Source: a virus
Length of the DNA: 28,472 bases
Strand: one strand, 5' to 3'
Virus record (IMG/VR): IMGVR_UViG_3300046167_000782
Location: 1-28,472 of that record
Of this stretch, positions 4,666 to 28,089 are shown piece by piece. The notes under the pieces are model-generated. The model saw only the letters and a program-made list of their open reading frames with translations, had not been told where the DNA came from and searched no databases. A program made the translations under genes and the position numbers. Every line of letters starts with the position of its first letter. The first letter of the stretch is position 1.

Positions 4666-5279
4666 ACCATGAAGGAGTCGAGTACGTTCTTAAAGCAGAT
4701 ATCGAAGCTGCTTTCAAAGATCGAATCTCCAAACTATCTTCCAGAGCAATCCAAGCGGAAGAGGCAGCGAAGGCTCTTCAAGAGAGCTTAGATAACCAAT
4801 CGGGAGAACTGCAGAAGATCTCCAAACTACAAGAGAAAGTATCTACTCTAGAGCAATCCTTAACGGATGCAGAGAGTAAGTATTCTCGAGTATCGATGCT
4901 ATCCGAGCAAGGTTTTACGGATCCAGAACTCCGAGAGGCTGTAGAATGGGCTTATCAAAGAAGTAAGAGCGAATCTCCATTGGATGAGTGGATTAAGGGA
5001 ATCAAAGAGAACCCGGATAACGCTCCTCTAGTCTTAAGACCTCATCTCCAATCGAAGCAGGCTACTCCTCCCACCGCAGAAGGATCCAATCCGGAAGCAG
5101 TAGCTCCAACCGCAGAAGCAACTCCAAGCCCTTCTCTCCTTCCTCCCAAAACCAATACAGGAGCGAAGCCCGCTCCAGTACAAAGCGGAGATATTCTTAA
5201 GAGAGCTGCACAGGATAGCGAGTTTTATGCACAGAATCGAGAGGCTATTAAGAAGGCCTGGAGAACTCGAAAGTATTAA
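4653..5279 (+). CDS. Capsid scaffolding protein
   Basis: This 208-residue protein is the likely internal scaffold for prohead assembly. Residues about 20-85 are a long predicted coiled coil with heptad-like spacing (ISKLSSRAIQAEEAAKALQE; LQEKVSTLEQSLTDAESKYS). A proline/alanine/threonine-rich linker (about 130-178) follows. The basic C-terminal helix (REAIKKAWRTRKY) is the type of segment by which scaffolds bind the coat protein. It lies upstream of the capsid gene. No separate prohead protease gene is visible, so the scaffold may leave intact, as in P22-like assembly. Function is inferred from composition and position. Confidence 0.78.
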   Translation: MQTINHEGVEYVLKADIEAAFKDRISKLSSRAIQAEEAAKALQESLDNQSGELQKISKLQEKVSTLEQSLTDAESKYSRVSMLSEQGFTDPELREAVEWAYQRSKSESPLDEWIKGIKENPDNAPLVLRPHLQSKQATPPTAEGSNPEAVAPTAEATPSPSLLPPKTNTGAKPAPVQSGDILKRAAQDSEFYAQNREAIKKAWRTRKY

Positions 5280-9103: not shown

Positions 9104-9870
9104 TGCCTACTAGCACCCCTTACGCTCCACAGATTAAGATTCCAGAGTTACTCGAGAGAGGGATAAGTAATACTTCTACCCTTCCTATCTATCGGGATGG
9201 GGTGCTCGTAGTTCCTACAGAGGTTCGATATACTCTCTATAAACCTAATCAAGAGAAGTTAATCGATAATGCTACTGCTTCCTTCCCTGCTAATATTCCT
9301 ACCTATGTTCATAGCCCTGCTATCTTGGACTCTAGCCTCACACTCGGAGAGGGATACCTCCAAGAGTGGAAGATTACAATTGTAGGAGAAGTCTTTACTT
9401 TCCGCAGGATGGGAGCTCTCGTTATTCGAAGGTTATATCCTGTAGTATCGGATGGAGATCTTACTGCTACTTACTCTCAGCTCGAAGATATCAGACCCTC
9501 GAATCTTACTTCTTACCAGACTTACATAGACGAGGCCTGGTACACGATGATCCAACGAATGAGAACAGAAGGAGGAGGCCTCGAGTATCTTGTAATGAGT
9601 GCAGAAGCCTTTCGAGCTGCTCATCAGAATCTATCTCTCTACTACATCTTCCGAGATTTCCATTCTAGCTTAGGCCAGAGTAACGGAAGATATCTAGATC
9701 TAGCTAATGAGCATTACTCACAGTATAAGGATGAGTGGAAGCAGATTAACTTTATCTATGATCAAAACCATACAGGCCAGAGCAGCAGCCCAGATAACAG
9801 AGTATCGAAGCAGCCTGTTATTTTTCTCAATGGTCAAGGTAATTATACTCGTAGATTCCGGAGAAGATAA
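9103..9870 (+). CDS. Putative head-tail connector protein
   Basis: This 255-residue protein starts with a beta-rich domain (residues about 1-110: PIYRDGVLVVPTEVRYTLY, EWKITIVGEVFTFRR). A helical part follows (about 115-220) that resembles the gp6/gp15-type adaptor fold: DLTATYSQLEDIRPSNLTSY, YIDEAWYTMIQRMRTEGG, LANEHYSQYKDEWK. The end is basic (YTRRFRRR). Position between capsid and tail-terminator-like genes supports a neck ring. Overlaps are one base at each end, indicating coupled translation. The family assignment is from pattern and order only. Confidence 0.65.
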   Translation: MPTSTPYAPQIKIPELLERGISNTSTLPIYRDGVLVVPTEVRYTLYKPNQEKLIDNATASFPANIPTYVHSPAILDSSLTLGEGYLQEWKITIVGEVFTFRRMGALVIRRLYPVVSDGDLTATYSQLEDIRPSNLTSYQTYIDEAWYTMIQRMRTEGGGLEYLVMSAEAFRAAHQNLSLYYIFRDFHSSLGQSNGRYLDLANEHYSQYKDEWKQINFIYDQNHTGQSSSPDNRVSKQPVIFLNGQGNYTRRFRRR

Positions 9871-10298
9871 TGGGACAATCTCTATCCAGTATCCGGAGAG
9901 GAATAGCCTCTAAGATCGAAGAGATCTCGGGCTTCAAAGAATCTAAGCATACTCCGGATTATTTCGGAAGAACGGAGAACACTGTAGCCCATAGAGCCTT
10001 CTCTATCTCTGTAGCAAGCTCTACAGCAATGGAAGAGAGGCAACGGAGAGCGGTAGGAGTCTATCTTGCTACTCCAATACAAGTTCTATTCTCTTATCGA
10101 TTAAGACCTCTAGATATATATCCTACGGATTACGATGCCTCTCTTGATGCAGAGGAAGAGGTTATTAACAAGGTACTCGAGGCCTATACTACGGATAATC
10201 AGTTTACTATCCGATACGTAGCATCTCAGAGAACCGTAACAGATTCCCAAGAGTATATCCTTATTACTTTATCCTTCAATATTCTACACACTATTTAA
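9870..10298 (+). CDS. Putative tail terminator / tail completion protein
   Basis: This 142-residue protein lies just before the tail tube gene, the usual place of the tail terminator that caps the tube and docks on the neck. The size fits and the mixed alpha/beta pattern agrees: an N-terminal helix (LSSIRRGIASKIEEISGF), strands with YRLRPLDIYP, a helix DAEEEVINKVLEAYT, and final strands QEYILITLSFNIL. No catalytic motif is present. Overlap with the upstream gene is one base. I consider the role probable rather than certain. Confidence 0.62.
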   Translation: MGQSLSSIRRGIASKIEEISGFKESKHTPDYFGRTENTVAHRAFSISVASSTAMEERQRRAVGVYLATPIQVLFSYRLRPLDIYPTDYDASLDAEEEVINKVLEAYTTDNQFTIRYVASQRTVTDSQEYILITLSFNILHTI

Positions 10299-21654: not shown

Positions 21655-22094
21655 TGTGGAAGCTAGCCTATCAAAGTATTATCCAAGGCCCTCCGGTAGC
21701 TATGGGAAGGCCTCGGATAACTCGAACCGGAAGAGCCTACACTCCGAAAACGAGTAGAAGTTATAAGGATGCAGCTGTTAAGGCTCTCAAGGATGGAACT
21801 GGAGAGGATTGGATTCCTCTCGATGGTATCTTTAAGATCAAAGTATCCTTTGTACATCCGAGAACGAAGAGATTACACCTGCAGAAGGGGAGCCTTCCTC
21901 ATGGTAGAATATGGAGGCCTAAGAAGCCAGATATCGATAATCTTCTTAAGATGGTACTCGATTGCATTACCCAATCGGAGATCTGGATAGATGATAACCG
22001 CGTAGTATCTCTTACCGCGGAAGATTACTACTGCGGAGAAGATGAGGAAGCCCATACACTCTTCTCTATTTATCAATGGAGAGAAGATGGATAA
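21654..22094 (+). CDS. rusA: RusA-like Holliday junction resolvase
   Basis: This 146-residue protein belongs to the RusA family of dimeric four-way-junction endonucleases. Landmarks are the N-terminal strand with GPPVAMGRPRITRTGRAYTP, the acidic signature RPKKPDIDNLLKMVLD (D93 and D95), and IWIDDNRVVSLTAEDYYC (D112, D113). These acids chelate the catalytic metal ion. Length is normal for phage versions. It resolves recombination or replication intermediates before packaging. Its end overlaps the primase-like gene by 8 bases. Confidence 0.93.
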   Translation: MWKLAYQSIIQGPPVAMGRPRITRTGRAYTPKTSRSYKDAAVKALKDGTGEDWIPLDGIFKIKVSFVHPRTKRLHLQKGSLPHGRIWRPKKPDIDNLLKMVLDCITQSEIWIDDNRVVSLTAEDYYCGEDEEAHTLFSIYQWREDG

Positions 22095-22932
22095 GAAGTT
22101 TAAGATAAGCACCTTCTCGAATAAGTTTACGAGGATTCCAGTACCTGCAGAAGTATCTCTCCGTAATCTAGCTCGCGCTCTTATGATGCCTTCGAAGCCC
22201 TTTCCAGTAAGAGAGAAAGGAAGCCTCCCTCTCTGGAGTCCTACTACCTTTAACGGAAATCGAAGCGGGGTTAATGCTATCGAGATCTCTTGCTTAGTAT
22301 TCGATATGGATGATGGTACGGATTATGGCCATAGATACAGCTTCTCGAAGTATCATTACATAGCCCATACCTCCTTCTCTCATTCCGAAGAGATCCACAA
22401 GTGGAGAATAATCCTTCCTCTCGAGGAGCCTATCCCCGCTATCGATTGGAAGAGAGCAGCGAAGGCAGCTAAGGAACTATGGGATAATACAATAGGAGAG
22501 GGAGAGCCAGATTCGAACGCTCTAACGGATTGCGCTAGAATGTATTACAGGTTCGCATACCCGGAGCGAGAAGATAAGGATCTTCAATCTACTGCAGCCC
22601 ATAAAGGAGAGGGCCTGCTTAGATTGGATTATTCCCATATTCCAAAGGAAGAGCCGAAAAAAAGATACGAACGATGGAAGCCCAGGAAGGCAGGAGCGAA
22701 GATCGGAGTAGAGGGATTATTCCACAATCTAGATTTTAGAATGAAGATAGCGAACCGGATAGGGGCTAGCATAGATGGGAATATCGCAAGGAATGTAACT
22801 TGTCCTTCCTGCGGTAGAGATGAGGTTTACTTCTCAATAGATCCTTATCTTCCTCATTCTGTTTTATGGCCTCACTGTAACCGCGCTAATAAATGCGGAT
22901 GGTGGGGAAGATTGGAGGACTTGATACAATGA
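22087..22932 (+). CDS. Primase-polymerase-like protein with C-terminal zinc ribbon
   Basis: This 281-residue protein looks like a phage archaeo-eukaryotic-type primase. The strand LVFDMDDGTDYG places acids D73, D75 and D76 in the metal site, YIAHTSFSHSEEIHKWRIIL gives the H and basic K-W-R of the third motif, followed by PLEEPIP. C-terminal cysteines CPSCGRDE (239-242) and CNRANKCGWWG (264-270) form a zinc ribbon suited to template recognition. The ATG at 22087 with GGAGAG eight bases upstream is preferred over 22042, which lies deeper in rusA. The VirE-type helicase four genes on supplies the partner activity often fused to such primases. Confidence 0.78.
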   Translation: MDKKFKISTFSNKFTRIPVPAEVSLRNLARALMMPSKPFPVREKGSLPLWSPTTFNGNRSGVNAIEISCLVFDMDDGTDYGHRYSFSKYHYIAHTSFSHSEEIHKWRIILPLEEPIPAIDWKRAAKAAKELWDNTIGEGEPDSNALTDCARMYYRFAYPEREDKDLQSTAAHKGEGLLRLDYSHIPKEEPKKRYERWKPRKAGAKIGVEGLFHNLDFRMKIANRIGASIDGNIARNVTCPSCGRDEVYFSIDPYLPHSVLWPHCNRANKCGWWGRLEDLIQ

Positions 22933-23268: not shown

Positions 23269-23541
23269 ATGTATTTTAATAAGTGGGTTCAAAGCAAGAT
23301 AGAGCAATTATCTATCACTAGGAGATATCTCTGCGATATCTCCGGGATATGCTACTCGAGTATATCTCTATCCAAAAAGTTCCAACCTAGACTCGTTAAT
23401 CTTGTGCTAGTGTGTGAGGTACTAAACGAAGAGCAAGGAGGAGATCAATCTTCTCTCGATGCTCTCATATTAGAAGCGATTAGAGTATCTAGCAGAGAGT
23501 ATCGCTTCGCTATGGAAAGACTCGAAGAGGTGAAGAGATGA
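23269..23541 (+). CDS. Small HTH protein, tandem paralogue A
   Basis: This 90-residue protein has a helix-turn-helix at about residues 16-36 (ITRRYLCDISGICYSSISLS). It aligns along its whole length with the next gene product: FNKWVQSKIEQL / FNEWLKMKAAEL, FQPRLVNLVLVCEVLNEEQG / FRPRLDNLVILCEVMNRVQE, and SSLDALILEAI / DSFDGLIIEAI. It therefore arose by tandem duplication. A strong CGGAGGTAC ribosome site precedes the ATG, and it overlaps its copy by ATGA. A heterodimer or two different operator specificities are possible. Confidence 0.78.
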   Translation: MYFNKWVQSKIEQLSITRRYLCDISGICYSSISLSKKFQPRLVNLVLVCEVLNEEQGGDQSSLDALILEAIRVSSREYRFAMERLEEVKR

Positions 23542-23807
23542 TATTCAACGAATGGTTAAAGATGAAGGCTGCAGAGCTAGAGATTACTCGAAAGTATCTC
23601 GCAGAGGTAACCGGTATCAACTATCGAACCTTACAGACTACGAACACCTTTAGACCTCGATTGGATAATCTCGTTATCCTTTGCGAAGTTATGAACAGGG
23701 TACAAGAGGGAGATAAAGATTCCTTCGATGGGTTGATTATCGAAGCGATTGCAGCCTGTATAAAAGATTATGAGTACGCAGTAAAACGATTAGAGGAGGG
23801 GAAGTAA
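23538..23807 (+). CDS. Small HTH protein, tandem paralogue B
   Basis: This 89-residue protein is the second copy of the duplicated HTH gene, overlapping copy A by four bases and the helicase gene by one. HTH residues about 16-36 read ITRKYLAEVTGINYRTLQTT. The recognition helix differs clearly from copy A (NYRTLQTTNTF against CYSSISLSKKF) while scaffold positions are conserved. That pattern suggests divergence in the DNA sequence recognised. The C-terminal helices (FDGLIIEAIAACIKDYEYAV) are probably for dimerisation. Confidence 0.78.
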   Translation: MIFNEWLKMKAAELEITRKYLAEVTGINYRTLQTTNTFRPRLDNLVILCEVMNRVQEGDKDSFDGLIIEAIAACIKDYEYAVKRLEEGK

Positions 23808-25078
23808 TGAACCAAGAAACAATGAAGAAGATGTTAGAACTCGCTAAGCAGATGGGAATCGATGCAGAATATAAGCACGCTCCAGAAGGTGCAGATATTG
23901 ATACTTGGGATCTACTACAGAAGAGTGAAGCGAAGTACGATAAGGATGGAGAGTTAACCAAGCCTCCTAGACCATATGCCAATCGGAATAACATAGCCCT
24001 AATCTTAGAGAACGATCCTCTCTTTACTTCGCTCTGTTACAATGACCACGCTAATAAGGTGAAGTGGAACGATAGAGAGCTCTGGGATCCAGATCTCGAG
24101 GAGATAGGATTACATATCGAGAGATGTTATCGAATAAAATATCCTTCTGCAGATATCAAGAGAGCAGTTCTTAGAGTAGCCCATCAAAACCTAGAGGAAA
24201 GGATTAAGGATTGGCTAGAGGCTCTTCCGGAGTGGGATGGAGGAGAGAGAATCCATTCTTTCTTCCATAATGTATTTCGAGCGGAGAGAGTACCCGGTAG
24301 CGATCAGATTATTGAAGAGATGAGTTCGAAGTGGTTTATATCTCTAGTCGCTAGAGCACTGGATCCGGGGTGTAAAATGGATACCTTCCTTATCCTCTGC
24401 GGTGAGAAAGGACTCGGAAAGAGTACAGGCCTTCGAAATATCGTAGGCTCTCAATGGTTTTCTGATAGTAATCTCGATATCGCTAAGAAGGACTCTCTCG
24501 AGTTAATCCATTCTACGGAGACTTGGCTATGGGAACTAGCGGAGCTACACTCTCTAAGCGGTAAGACTGCGGATAACTTCAAAGCATTTATCTCCTCAAG
24601 TGAAGATAAGTTTAGGCCAGCCTATCAGCAATTCCCAAAGAGTTATCTCCGTAGAGTAGTGTTCGCAGGTACTTCGAATAACTATCAGTTTCTAACAGAT
24701 GGCCCGGAGAGAAGAGTATGGCCTATTACCTGTACAGGCCAGATTGACCAAGGATATATAAAAGCATGGAGAGAGCAGCTGTTCGCGGAAGCCCTTGCAG
24801 CCTATCGAGAGCCGGAGAGCATCTTTCATCTAGAATGGGAATCTCAAAGAATGTTAAGCGAGTTACAGCAGGCTTATATAATCGATGATCCTTGGACTAT
24901 TCGAGTAAGAGAAGCTCTAGTAAGTGGACAGAATACAAGTGCTCAGATTATGGAGTTCTTAGATCTCCCCATCAATCAGCAGCATACTGGGAACGCTAGA
25001 AGGATTATGAAGATAGCGAAGGAATCCGGATACAAACAGATAAACAAAGATGGATCTCGAGTATACATTAGAAAATAA
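23807..25078 (+). CDS. VirE-type replicative helicase / P-loop ATPase
   Basis: This 423-residue protein matches the virulence-associated-E family of phage replication ATPases. Walker A is GEKGLGKST at 199-207. TWLWELAELHSLSGKTADNF (239-258) is the Walker B-like region with E243 and E246, and SEDKFRPAYQQFPK follows. VVFAGTSNNYQFLTDGPERR (284-303) is the family signature with sensor asparagines and arginine finger candidates. The N-terminal ~140 residues are the usual family adaptor; the primase is encoded separately upstream. It should unwind the replication fork. The C-terminus carries a basic DNA-binding-like helical region. It starts on the last base of the HTH gene. Confidence 0.88.
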   Translation: MNQETMKKMLELAKQMGIDAEYKHAPEGADIDTWDLLQKSEAKYDKDGELTKPPRPYANRNNIALILENDPLFTSLCYNDHANKVKWNDRELWDPDLEEIGLHIERCYRIKYPSADIKRAVLRVAHQNLEERIKDWLEALPEWDGGERIHSFFHNVFRAERVPGSDQIIEEMSSKWFISLVARALDPGCKMDTFLILCGEKGLGKSTGLRNIVGSQWFSDSNLDIAKKDSLELIHSTETWLWELAELHSLSGKTADNFKAFISSSEDKFRPAYQQFPKSYLRRVVFAGTSNNYQFLTDGPERRVWPITCTGQIDQGYIKAWREQLFAEALAAYREPESIFHLEWESQRMLSELQQAYIIDDPWTIRVREALVSGQNTSAQIMEFLDLPINQQHTGNARRIMKIAKESGYKQINKDGSRVYIRK

Positions 25079-25089
25079 AGGGGGTAACG

Positions 25090-25980
25090 ATGGAGAAAAA
25101 ATATAGCATTGGGAGCCTCTTCGCAGGGATAGGAGGCTTCGAACTGGGATTGGAGCGGGCTATCCCTGGGGCTTATACTCTGTGGCAAGTCGAGCAAGAG
25201 AAATATTGTAAGAAGGTACTCTCTAAGCATTGGCCAGAGGCTACTATTTATGATGATGTAAGGAACATAACGAAGAACAATACAAAGCAAGTGGATATCC
25301 TATGTGGTGGGTTCCCTTGTCAAGATATATCCGTAGCAGGAAAAGGGGAAGGTTTACATGGGAAAAAGTCTGGTCTTTGGTGGGAGATGCACCGTATTAT
25401 CGAGGAGTTACAGCCCAAAGCAGTTATTATGGAGAACGTTGCAGCAATCACTATTCGAGGGCTTGGAACAGTACTTGGATCGCTATCCCAAATCGGGTAC
25501 GATGCGGAATGGTGTACTATACGAGCGAGTGATTTCGGAGCCCCTCATAGAAGAGCGAGATGGTTTTGCATCGCTTATCCCTCCTCAGTGTCTAACAGCA
25601 GATGGACTCCTACCCACTCCAATAAAGAGCGAGAGCGAACGAAGGAGCCGATTCCAGCAAGGAGGCAGACCTCTAATGTGTATGCTTTTAAAGGGTTATC
25701 TACCTACTCCCTCAGTAAACGAGAGCAAGAACAATCCTTACACCCCTTCACAATGGAAGAGGAAGGACTCCCTAAATATAGATGCAGCCAGGCTAGCAGG
25801 CTACACAGAAGAAACTATTGGGAAGGATTCCCAACTGAATCCCCCGTTTGTAGAAGAGATGATGGGATTCCCTATCGGATGGACAGACTTAGAGCCCTAG
25901 GTAATGCTATTGTTCCTCAGTGTTCGGAGTGGATAGGGAGGAAGCTCTGGGAGAGTGGTATTCTACAAAGTAGTAATTGA
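25090..25980 (+). CDS. C5-cytosine DNA methyltransferase (Dcm-like)
   Basis: This 296-residue enzyme transfers methyl groups to cytosine C5. Motif I is SLFAGIGGFELGLE (9-22), motif IV GGFPCQDIS (73-81) with catalytic C77, motif VI ENVAA (115-119), and motif VIII RRARWF (154-159). Motif X is LRALGNAIVPQ (267-277). The variable target-recognition part (about 165-265) ends YWEGFPTESPVC-RRDDGIPYRMD, typical of phage Dcm-like enzymes. Remarkably, the +1 frame over the same DNA reads as another recognisable methyltransferase C-terminus. A GGGGGTAAC ribosome site precedes it, and a terminator follows. It likely protects phage DNA from restriction. Confidence 0.93.
   Translation: MEKKYSIGSLFAGIGGFELGLERAIPGAYTLWQVEQEKYCKKVLSKHWPEATIYDDVRNITKNNTKQVDILCGGFPCQDISVAGKGEGLHGKKSGLWWEMHRIIEELQPKAVIMENVAAITIRGLGTVLGSLSQIGYDAEWCTIRASDFGAPHRRARWFCIAYPSSVSNSRWTPTHSNKERERTKEPIPARRQTSNVYAFKGLSTYSLSKREQEQSLHPFTMEEEGLPKYRCSQASRLHRRNYWEGFPTESPVCRRDDGIPYRMDRLRALGNAIVPQCSEWIGRKLWESGILQSSN
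25358..25900 (+). other. Overlapping +1 frame with second methyltransferase-type C-terminal domain
   Basis: The frame is open for 181 codons within the C5 methyltransferase gene. From about 25583 on it reads PQCLTADGLLPTP, GYLPTPSVNESKNN, DSLNIDAARLAG and finally SQLNPPFVEEMMGFPIGWTD-LEP before a TAG. These are the classical LPTP and LNP-FVE-MMGFP-GWTDL signatures of phage C5 methyltransferase recognition domains. The stop falls exactly where motif X begins in the main frame. It could be reached by a +1 shift, for example at TAT CCC TCC (25576-25584) where CCC can re-pair as CCT, giving ~269 residues. An internal start at 25358 is the alternative. Confidence 0.5.
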
Positions 25981-26040
25981 TTTATCTCTTCGAATACGGT
26001 ATACTCATATCGAGTTAATTGAATGAATGTTATAGGCTTA

Positions 26041-26070
26041 AGGGCTCGGAGTTCTCTCCGGGCTCTTTTT
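26041..26070 (+). terminator. Terminator of the early/replication operon
   Basis: AGGGCTCGGAG (26041-26051) and CTCCGGGCTCT (26056-26066) form an 11-bp stem with two G-U pairs and a TTCT loop, followed by a T run. It lies 60 bases after the methyltransferase stop. Confidence 0.88.
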
Positions 26071-26150: not shown

Positions 26151-26214
26151 AAAAATACAGATCGGTAATGAAAAATACAGATAGAATACAGATGATATAC
26201 AGATGAAAACAGAT
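26151..26214 (+). repeat. Forward iteron array (ATACAGAT x5)
   Basis: ATACAGAT occurs at 26155, 26175, 26186 and 26197, and the variant AAACAGAT at 26207. The first two copies are extended to AAAAATACAGAT. Spacings of 20, 11, 11 and 10 bases put all copies on one face of the helix. Confidence 0.85.
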
Positions 26215-26256
26215 ACCCAAATATCTTATAATGCCCTACGATAGGGGAAAAAGTAC

Positions 26257-26275
26257 CAATATTTAACAGATATTG
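26257..26275. repeat. Small inverted repeat CAATAT/ATATTG
   Basis: A perfect 6-bp inverted repeat encloses TTAACAG; the overlap contains a degenerate iteron TAACAGAT (26264-26271). Confidence 0.5.
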
Positions 26276-26295
26276 AGTAGTTTTTATAAGAAGTA

Positions 26296-26319
26296 TATAA
26301 ATAGAGGGGGGTATTTATA
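26296..26319. repeat. Central AT palindrome TATAAATA/TATTTATA
   Basis: A perfect 8-bp all-AT inverted repeat flanks a GAGGGGGG loop, close to the midpoint between the two iteron arrays. It is a candidate DNA-unwinding or extruding element. Confidence 0.7.
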
Positions 26320-26400
26320 TTATACTAGCAAAGAAGAGGCCCGAAGTACCCTAGAATAGTACATCGAGCCCATAGCAGCGAACGTATAAAAGTATTTAGT

Positions 26401-26440
26401 ATCTGTATTCTATCTGTATTTTATCTGTTTCTATCTGTAT
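26401..26440 (-). repeat. Inverted iteron array (ATCTGTAT x4)
   Basis: ATCTGTAT occurs at 26401, 26412 and 26433, and the variant ATCTGTTT at 26423. Spacings are 11, 11 and 10 bases. These are the reverse complement of the forward units, including the AAACAGAT variant. Confidence 0.85.
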
Positions 26441-26442
26441 TT

Positions 26443-26787
26443 TTACTCTGCTTCCAGTTTACGGATAGCCCTTTTAACCCATCTAGAGGCAGGAGTACCA
26501 CCCCATAGAGCCCAAGCGATAGCAGCCTTACTCGTTTTATCTTGTCTAGCCTTGCTCTCTGCTTTTGCTTCTCCATGCCTAGCGAACCAAGCATCCATTA
26601 ACTTTAACTGGGGAAGATCAACCTCTCCAGAGGCTAGCCTTCTCGCAGTTCTTACTCCAGTACCGGGTATCTTCTTTCCTCCTTCCTCTTTGTACGATGC
26701 TCGTTTACTGATTGGGAGGGATAGGTTATAATCTATTGCTCTCTTCGCGAGTACTTGTATCTCTCGAGGAACTCTAATCTTAGGCAT
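26443..26787 (-). CDS. Small phage protein with WGG-type C-terminal motif, unknown function
   Basis: This 114-residue protein is started at 26787 because AGGAGG lies four bases upstream on the minus strand; a longer frame to 26916 would run through the opposite gene. The pattern GGKKIPGTGVRTARRLASGE, then LKLMDAWFARH, and SKAAIAWALWGGTPASRWVK resembles a domain found in many phages: GGT-x-VGxARA, a helix with FARH, and AWLLWGGDAG-W. In other phages it occurs alone or fused to head or protease proteins, and its function is unknown. It converges on the iteron region and diverges from the next gene. Confidence 0.72.
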   Translation of the reverse strand: MPKIRVPREIQVLAKRAIDYNLSLPISKRASYKEEGGKKIPGTGVRTARRLASGEVDLPQLKLMDAWFARHGEAKAESKARQDKTSKAAIAWALWGGTPASRWVKRAIRKLEAE

Positions 26788-27393: not shown

Positions 27394-28089
27394 ATGGATA
27401 TAAAAGAACGAAGAGAACCGGAGATTAATCTCCATCTCGGATGCTCTCTGCAGGCTATGCGAGAGATGAAGGATAACCAATACGATCTAGCAATCGTAGA
27501 TCCTCCTTATGGGATAGACTTCGATGGTAATACTACAATTTATCCAAAGTCAGGATTTAACAAAGGATTTACCGATAAACAGCATCATAAAAAAAAAGGT
27601 TGGGATAAACAGAGGCCCCCTGTAGAATATTTTAAACAATTGCTTAGAGTATCGAAGAATCAGATTATATGGGGAGGTAACTATTTTTCTGATCTCCTAC
27701 CACCTTCCAAAGGTTGGATATATTGGGATAAGAAAATTACTAATTCCAATGAAAAAAACTTTTCAGATGGAGAGTTAGCCTATACATCTTATAAAAAGAG
27801 GCTTATAAAATATACATATGATTGGATTGGATTTGGGTATCTAAATAATCCTGACAGACAAAAAAAAATACATCCTACAGAGAAGCCCTTCGCTCTCTAT
27901 AAATGGTTATTAGAGAACTATGCGAAGGAAGGAGATAAGATTCTAGATACTCATTTAGGATCGGGCTCGATTGCTTGCGCTTGCTACGATATGGGATTCG
28001 ATCTAGATGCTTTCGAAATAGATACAGACTATTACAAAGATACTTTACTTCGCTATACTGAATATTCGAAGCAGTGTAAACTATTCTAA
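27394..28089 (+). CDS. DNA methyltransferase, DPPY-type (adenine-N6 likely)
   Basis: This 231-residue enzyme has motif IV DPPYG at 36-40, the conserved HPTEKP at 160-165 and the cofactor-binding motif I as DTHLGSGS at 185-192, followed by DAFEID. The order catalytic motif first, cofactor motif last marks the beta class (as in CcrM/HinfI types); DPPY favours adenine N6. The part between (about 45-158) is target recognition and is clearly more AT-rich, with A runs, than both ends of the gene, suggesting domain exchange. GAGGTAC ribosome site. No restriction partner is seen, so it is an orphan protective or regulatory enzyme. Confidence 0.92.
   Translation: MDIKERREPEINLHLGCSLQAMREMKDNQYDLAIVDPPYGIDFDGNTTIYPKSGFNKGFTDKQHHKKKGWDKQRPPVEYFKQLLRVSKNQIIWGGNYFSDLLPPSKGWIYWDKKITNSNEKNFSDGELAYTSYKKRLIKYTYDWIGFGYLNNPDRQKKIHPTEKPFALYKWLLENYAKEGDKILDTHLGSGSIACACYDMGFDLDAFEIDTDYYKDTLLRYTEYSKQCKLF

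Follow-up and report, generated by a model that had tools for sequence, protein, structure and literature searches.

Two inverted iteron arrays downstream of a VapE-like helicase gene as a probable PICI/SaPI-type replication origin in an uncultivated phage family

The DNA analysed here (the window) is 28,472 bases long, comes from a virus record and has no exact end repeats. It encodes the large and small subunits of terminase (terS starts at 104), RusA, two methyltransferases, and proteins with weak matches to a major head protein and to a phage tail protein. Because of the terminase subunits and the weak head and tail matches, the record looks like a tailed phage, apparently complete, rather than a satellite that needs a helper phage to make its particles. 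Two short matches came from a nucleotide search of phages, each within a methyltransferase gene, and a scan of genome contigs returned two distant VapE relatives and identified no host or prophage. Towards the right of the window, a primase-like protein (22042..22932, + strand; PHROG DNA primase, 9.5e-05), in which a DMDD motif was read by eye, is encoded separately from a VapE-like self-loading helicase (23807..25078, + strand; PF05272, E 1.9e-58), our proposed initiator. Just before vapE, at 23269-23807, two tandem genes specify similar small proteins of 89-90 amino acids, one with a weak HTH match; the relatives described below fall into two clades, I and II, and most clade II contigs gave no BLAST match to these proteins.

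Between vapE and the repeats that are the subject of this study stands a gene for a C5 cytosine methyltransferase (25090..25980, + strand; PF00145, E 1.1e-49), for which several relatives had no BLAST match. The methyltransferase genes (25090-25980 and 27394-28089 in the window) shift place among relatives, being found in the vapE-origin interval, before the primase gene, or not at all. A 180-codon open frame (25358-25900, + strand) overlaps the C5 methyltransferase gene in a different frame, and a terminator-like hairpin (26040..26067, + strand) lies 3' of it. On the other side, ending at the right-hand repeats, is a highly conserved gene for a 112-amino-acid protein (26443..26781, - strand), which has at least 504 relatives in viral contigs by alignment search and a weak match to phrog_2859. 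In the other 14 of 15 aligned sequences, this protein is 71-82% identical to the window copy; these 14 relatives span both clades, between which VapE is only about 46% identical.

The two flanking genes are convergent, as the earlier note had said, with open reading frames ending at 25980 and 26443, and two iteron arrays that read toward each other lie between them. The left array (26155..26214, + strand) holds five ATACAGAT-type units, starting at 26155, 26175, 26186 and 26197 (ATACAGAT) and at 26207 (AAACAGAT), while the right array (26401..26440) holds four, inverted relative to the left array, on the - strand at 26401, 26412, 26423 (AAACAGAT) and 26433. The steps are 20, 11, 11 and 10 on the left and 11, 11 and 10 on the right. 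The layout of five units facing four at 10-11 base spacing, previously described for this site, is therefore confirmed apart from one left step of 20, where a slot near 26165 is missing or decayed. The gap, given before as about 190 bases, measures 186 bp and contains a single extra ACAGAT at 26266. The window contains 66 words that match ATACAGAT with at most one mismatch, where shuffles give 40.7 (sd 5.6). Using a de novo scan to which no unit was supplied (any 6-mer, with at least three phased copies facing at least three phased inverted copies), the window scored 9, and none of 300 dinucleotide shuffles of it contained an inverted phased array.

The central spacer (26215..26400) is 66% AT, its most AT-rich 60 bases (78%) start at 26246, and it is the probable unwinding region. 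No perfect 8-bp palindrome exists between the arrays, and in this respect the all-AT palindrome that had been placed near the midpoint was wrongly described; the feature at that place is an inverted repeat of 9 bp, all AT, whose arms are 8 bases apart (26295-26303 / 26312-26320), centred exactly on the inter-array midpoint. An AT inverted repeat within one base of the midpoint also occurs in three relatives (L168, L171 and L181) and was not found in the other 21 representatives. A further hairpin in the spacer (26338..26370, - strand; 7 + 4 bp stem) adjoins the right array and shows compensatory changes in part of clade I: both sides changed in 10 of 11 pairs over 18 sequences, which 6 of 500 shuffles reach, and paired cells make up 77.8%, a share that falls to 64.6% in shuffles and does not exceed 51.5% when the structure is slid, values that are biased in its favour since the structure was derived from the window sequence. 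The number of pair types is no higher than in shuffles, four sequences (L171, L174, L175 and L179) do not fold the hairpin, and no structured RNA matched Rfam at gathering scores. This hairpin may be a site for single-strand initiation or for primase, or else an RNA.

The earlier note had proposed searching related genomes for the symmetry of the arrays, and it proved to be widespread. A search with the 112-amino-acid protein gave 27 viral loci. The corresponding set, read downstream of the 112-aa gene and not chosen for arrays, comprises 33 sequences (the window and 32 contigs; 29 distinct regions). Two inverted arrays are present in 31 of the 33 (27 of the 29 distinct regions), the exceptions being L130 and L131. 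The left and right arrays agree in type in every one of the 31 (CAGAT, ACACTA, or ACAC + GT/CA); that both arrays differ together between lineages is what a single binding protein would impose.

A VapE alignment search provided 75 loci, many on contigs already in the first set, or 76 with the window. An exact 6-mer scan found an inverted phased array in 44 of the 76, and a rescan allowing one mismatch raised this to 51, the window being included in both counts; in this set, word sharing between the two arrays is imposed by the scan itself. The rescan covered 25 of the 32 array-less loci plus four that had an array, and omitted seven contigs ending inside vapE (L155, L182, L185, L186, L213, L216 and L218). 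Four loci (L209, L220, L221 and L223) were dropped before counting because of AT-rich words or a distance of 1.8-5.5 kb from vapE; near 9720-9960, two of these (L220 and L221) carry inverted GTCCAA arrays, 3.6 kb from a more distant vapE, possibly another unit type. Shuffling the 75 related loci ten times each gave an inverted array in 0 of 750. The 21 array-less loci include 12 that end inside vapE or within 250 nt past its stop and four that end within about 1 kb, leaving five real negatives (L211, L214, L215, L217 and L219) with at least 2.8 kb 3' of vapE and no array; nor was an array found in the longer contigs of these five (four whole, and 19.3 of 27.3 kb for L219). Read toward the spacer, the units seen among relatives are ATACAGAT; AATCAGAT mixed with ATACAGAT; AACACTAG; AATACACGT; GATACAC; TTTCACAC; CCACATAA; and AATAACA.

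Unit steps in relatives are 10 or 11, or about double at a missing slot, and in 13 of 15 measured clade I genomes the innermost units lie at a distance of 197-199 nt. The exceptions are L165 (111) and L171 (180, or 199 without one extra inner word). In the other eleven genomes the distance is 188-211 despite differing unit and spacer sequences, although some of the clade II distances, like the 180 of L171, include an extra inner word that is perhaps spurious. With distances near-fixed within clade I and scattered elsewhere, we do not claim a strict helical phase between the two arrays. The spacer is more AT-rich than its own locus in 27 of 28 measured loci, the exception being L165; on this contig, which also appears as L118, the spacer is 87 nt short, with the AT-rich part among the missing bases and both arrays intact, which reflects either an assembly fault or a real deletion. 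Arrays lie 132-188 nt past the vapE stop in 25 of the 51 array loci; in the window the distance is 1.08 kb, with the methyltransferase gene between.

The perfect DnaA box TTATCCACA is concentrated at the arrays, with 48 copies within 450 nt of them (58,421 nt) against 8 in the remaining 329,498 nt of these loci. Such clusters accompany the arrays in 12 of the 51 loci, which include near-duplicates, and all 48 boxes are on the vapE side. In L162, for example, where vapE stops at 4929 and the array lies at 5274, they occupy positions 5030-5209 in the interval, and similar clusters are seen in L190, L187, L174, L158 and L212. The window has no DnaA box near its arrays. These clusters point to a replication function for which only some members use host DnaA. 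GC skew of the window did not help.

The earlier note saw no obvious dedicated initiator, a view that we would revise given the VapE-like helicase, whose C-terminal winged helix tracks the repeat type. The best structural match of the helicase is PriRep1 bound to double-stranded DNA (7pds, E 5.4e-15; sequence profile E 1e-39), with a predicted model of the core that is of low confidence. A winged helix is predicted, at a mean pLDDT of 89, for the last 89 residues; within it, residues 362-423 (24890..25075, + strand) form the proposed iteron-binding domain. The winged-helix fold, here with a best Z of 7.4, is a common one and does not by itself reveal a function; going by the predicted model, this domain would bind DNA.

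Five proteins are shared by both clades in our first set (VapE, primase, RusA, HTH 21151 and the 112-aa protein), and 16 of their alignment columns distinguish genomes with CAGAT units from those with ACAC units. VapE contributes six of these, HTH 21151 five, the primase four and RusA one, whereas the 112-aa protein contributes none. Only one of these, VapE 398, has a single residue per type. In a larger set of up to 49 genomes, which overlaps the smaller one in which residue 398 was first spotted by eye, it is Arg in 28 of 28 CAGAT genomes and Lys in 21 of 21 ACAC genomes, and none of the other columns, out of 1,114 in the five proteins, gives a clean separation; primase column 177 does split the unit types, but with many residues. 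Among representatives, Lys accompanies ACAC units in 13 of 13 and Arg accompanies CAGAT units in 10 of 10, and 398 is the sole separating column of 445 in the VapE alignment of these 23, these counts and those of the larger set excluding L198 and L210 (both Arg; units CCACAT and AATAACA). The residue (codon 24998-25000) falls within the recognition helix (394-406), the third of four helices from residue 362. The unit types are not entirely pure: some ACAG units occur in class B Lys genomes, two ACAC units in the right array of L161 (Arg), and a crude tally assigns ACAC words to L210, an Arg genome.

A tree of the VapE core that leaves out the C-terminal domain shows two changes of residue and two of unit among the 23 representatives, or three of each over all 25 rows, where L210 is labelled ACAC despite its Arg. 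A sign test on the association was not significant, and could not be, because there are only two or three independent switches. The covariation argument rests instead on the uniqueness of column 398 and on its position inside the recognition helix. The repeat type tracks residue 398 in these alignments. A more specific proposal, to which we give somewhat less than even odds, is that residue 398 is a natural specificity switch, Arg reading CAGAT and Lys reading ACAC, and that the residue and both arrays changed together in two lineages. If so, mutually incompatible replicons would exist within one phage family. Natural initiator/iteron pairs that differ at one recognition-helix residue also offer a test of origin choice by self-loading helicases.

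Taken together, we consider it probable (about 0.83) that the two arrays are the phage replication origin, of the PICI/SaPI satellite type, and that the VapE-like helicase recognises it via its C-terminal winged helix. The suggestion that this site is an origin and not a set of promoter operators is supported, and comparison gives good support to an origin with the helicase as its putative initiator, through the conserved arrays, the covariation with VapE and the DnaA-box clusters. Our confidence is tempered because there are only two switches and because the agreement between arrays is partly built into the scan. We also count against it the five array-less relatives, the genomes whose units depart from the Arg/Lys rule, the separating primase column, the shortened spacer of L165, the lack of a DnaA box in the window, and the methyltransferase gene between vapE and the array.

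The origin might instead have a different phage-encoded binder, the primase or HTH 21151 for instance, with VapE 398 hitch-hiking. Primase column 177 separates the unit types, and both proteins diverge more than VapE between the two clade II types; however, that primase column is multi-residue, HTH 21151 has no separating column in the larger set, the VapE change is one conservative swap in a recognition helix in two clades, and SaPI and SCC relatives bind via the helicase C-terminus according to PMC7581432. We therefore regard another binder as unlikely. The same holds for the small HTH proteins that the earlier note had put forward: besides the result for 21151, those at 22893 and 23269 had no BLAST match in 12 clade II contigs, and that at 23538 had weak matches in 3 of the 12. 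The 112-aa minus-strand neighbour, likewise considered as a binder, has no separating column.

A partition site (centromere) deserves mention because of parC in plasmid R1, a site with two sets of 11-bp iterons to which an adaptor protein attaches; with about five iterons of 10-11 bp in each of two sets, the window resembles it. The R1 sets, however, flank a promoter and run in the same direction, no par gene was found by Pfam among 29 distinct window proteins scanned, the repeat type follows VapE, and DnaA boxes adjoin the arrays in 12 of 51 loci, all of which makes partition very improbable. Least probable of all is a packaging (pac/cos) site or a set of regulatory operators: repeats near terminase genes do occur in packaging sites and terS begins close to the left end of the window, but the arrays lie between convergent gene ends beside the replication module, with an AT-rich spacer and, in relatives, DnaA boxes (TerS was represented by only 6 sequences for any comparison of covariation).

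Returning to an origin recognised by the VapE-like helicase, its operation can be envisaged as follows. The helicase would bind the iterons of each array via its C-terminal winged helix, and the 10-11 bp steps would place the units on one face of the helix, allowing one oligomer, probably a hexamer, per array. The two oligomers would face each other across the AT-rich spacer and melt it, and the helicases would then load onto the strands to give two forks, hence a bidirectional start, with the adjacent primase supplying primers. The possibility of two initiator complexes, raised before from the symmetry of the arrays, has a parallel in SaPI Rep, which appears to bind its origin as two hexamers (PMC7581432).

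The inverted-iteron plan may be general to VapE replicons, since it apparently occurs in some cultured phages too. From the 40 listed of 558 phage records found with VapE, eight were picked by hand. In three of the eight (Marinobacter PS3, Bacteroides F2 and Corynebacterium IME1320_01) the top inverted-repeat score of the locus lies just 3' of vapE; three others (Pae U5, Emery and Javan100) look alike by eye without it being the top score of the locus, and two (PM708P3 and BU183P1) have no inverted repeats 3' of vapE. On the specificity-switch proposal above, and at the same somewhat less than even odds, the PICI-type origin would further be a general origin of VapE phages, taken by satellites, and not a hallmark of satellites.

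Among known systems, the origin of phage lambda is comparable in having iterons beside AT-rich DNA, and differs in that a single iteron set lies inside the initiator gene (O) and a separate protein loads the helicase. In the satellite phage P4, the helicase part of the alpha protein ends in a winged helix that recognises iterons both at ori and at crr, as proposed for the helicase and two iteron sites of the window. In alpha, however, primase and helicase are fused and the two iteron regions are kilobases apart, whereas in the window primase and helicase are separate ORFs and the arrays are 186 bp apart; the P4 origin-binding domain structure was not among the 50 fold matches listed for the C-terminal winged helix.

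The closest likeness is with the Rep-ori systems of PICI/SaPI elements (SaPIbov1, SaPI5 and EcCICFT073), in which the iteron sets are oppositely oriented. The window shares with them the two iteron sets around an AT-rich region, the position of the arrays 3' of the helicase gene (directly so in 25 of 51 loci), and a VapE/D5-like helicase, best matched by PriRep1, with a C-terminal domain predicted to bind DNA. For these satellites, two iteron sets around an AT-rich region 3' of the rep gene have been described, a plan said to be found in "no other known bacterial replicon" (PMC6092414). Similarly, according to PMC7581432, SaPI Rep recognises the directly downstream origin via its C-terminal domain, and Cch2 of SCCmec is a self-loading helicase that uses its C-terminal domain to bind direct repeats lying downstream of its own gene, as the window has repeats downstream of a self-loading helicase gene. 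Although the arrangement had not been recognised from a described phage, it thus fits the published PICI origin plan. The differences are that the window record looks like a phage, that a methyltransferase gene intervenes, that primase and helicase are separate, and that DnaA-box clusters and a spacer hairpin occur in part of its relatives. In the open-licence literature, searches for VapE with iteron, for two sets of iterons and for virulence-associated E with origin each turned up no paper with every term. A plan given in print as restricted to PICIs occurs throughout a family of uncultivated phages and, apparently, in some cultured phages with VapE-type primases, which bears on the source of satellite replicons. 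In conclusion, the plan itself is already described for phage satellites, and what differs here is its setting in a phage family, the separate primase and helicase, the DnaA boxes in part of the family, and the spacer hairpin.
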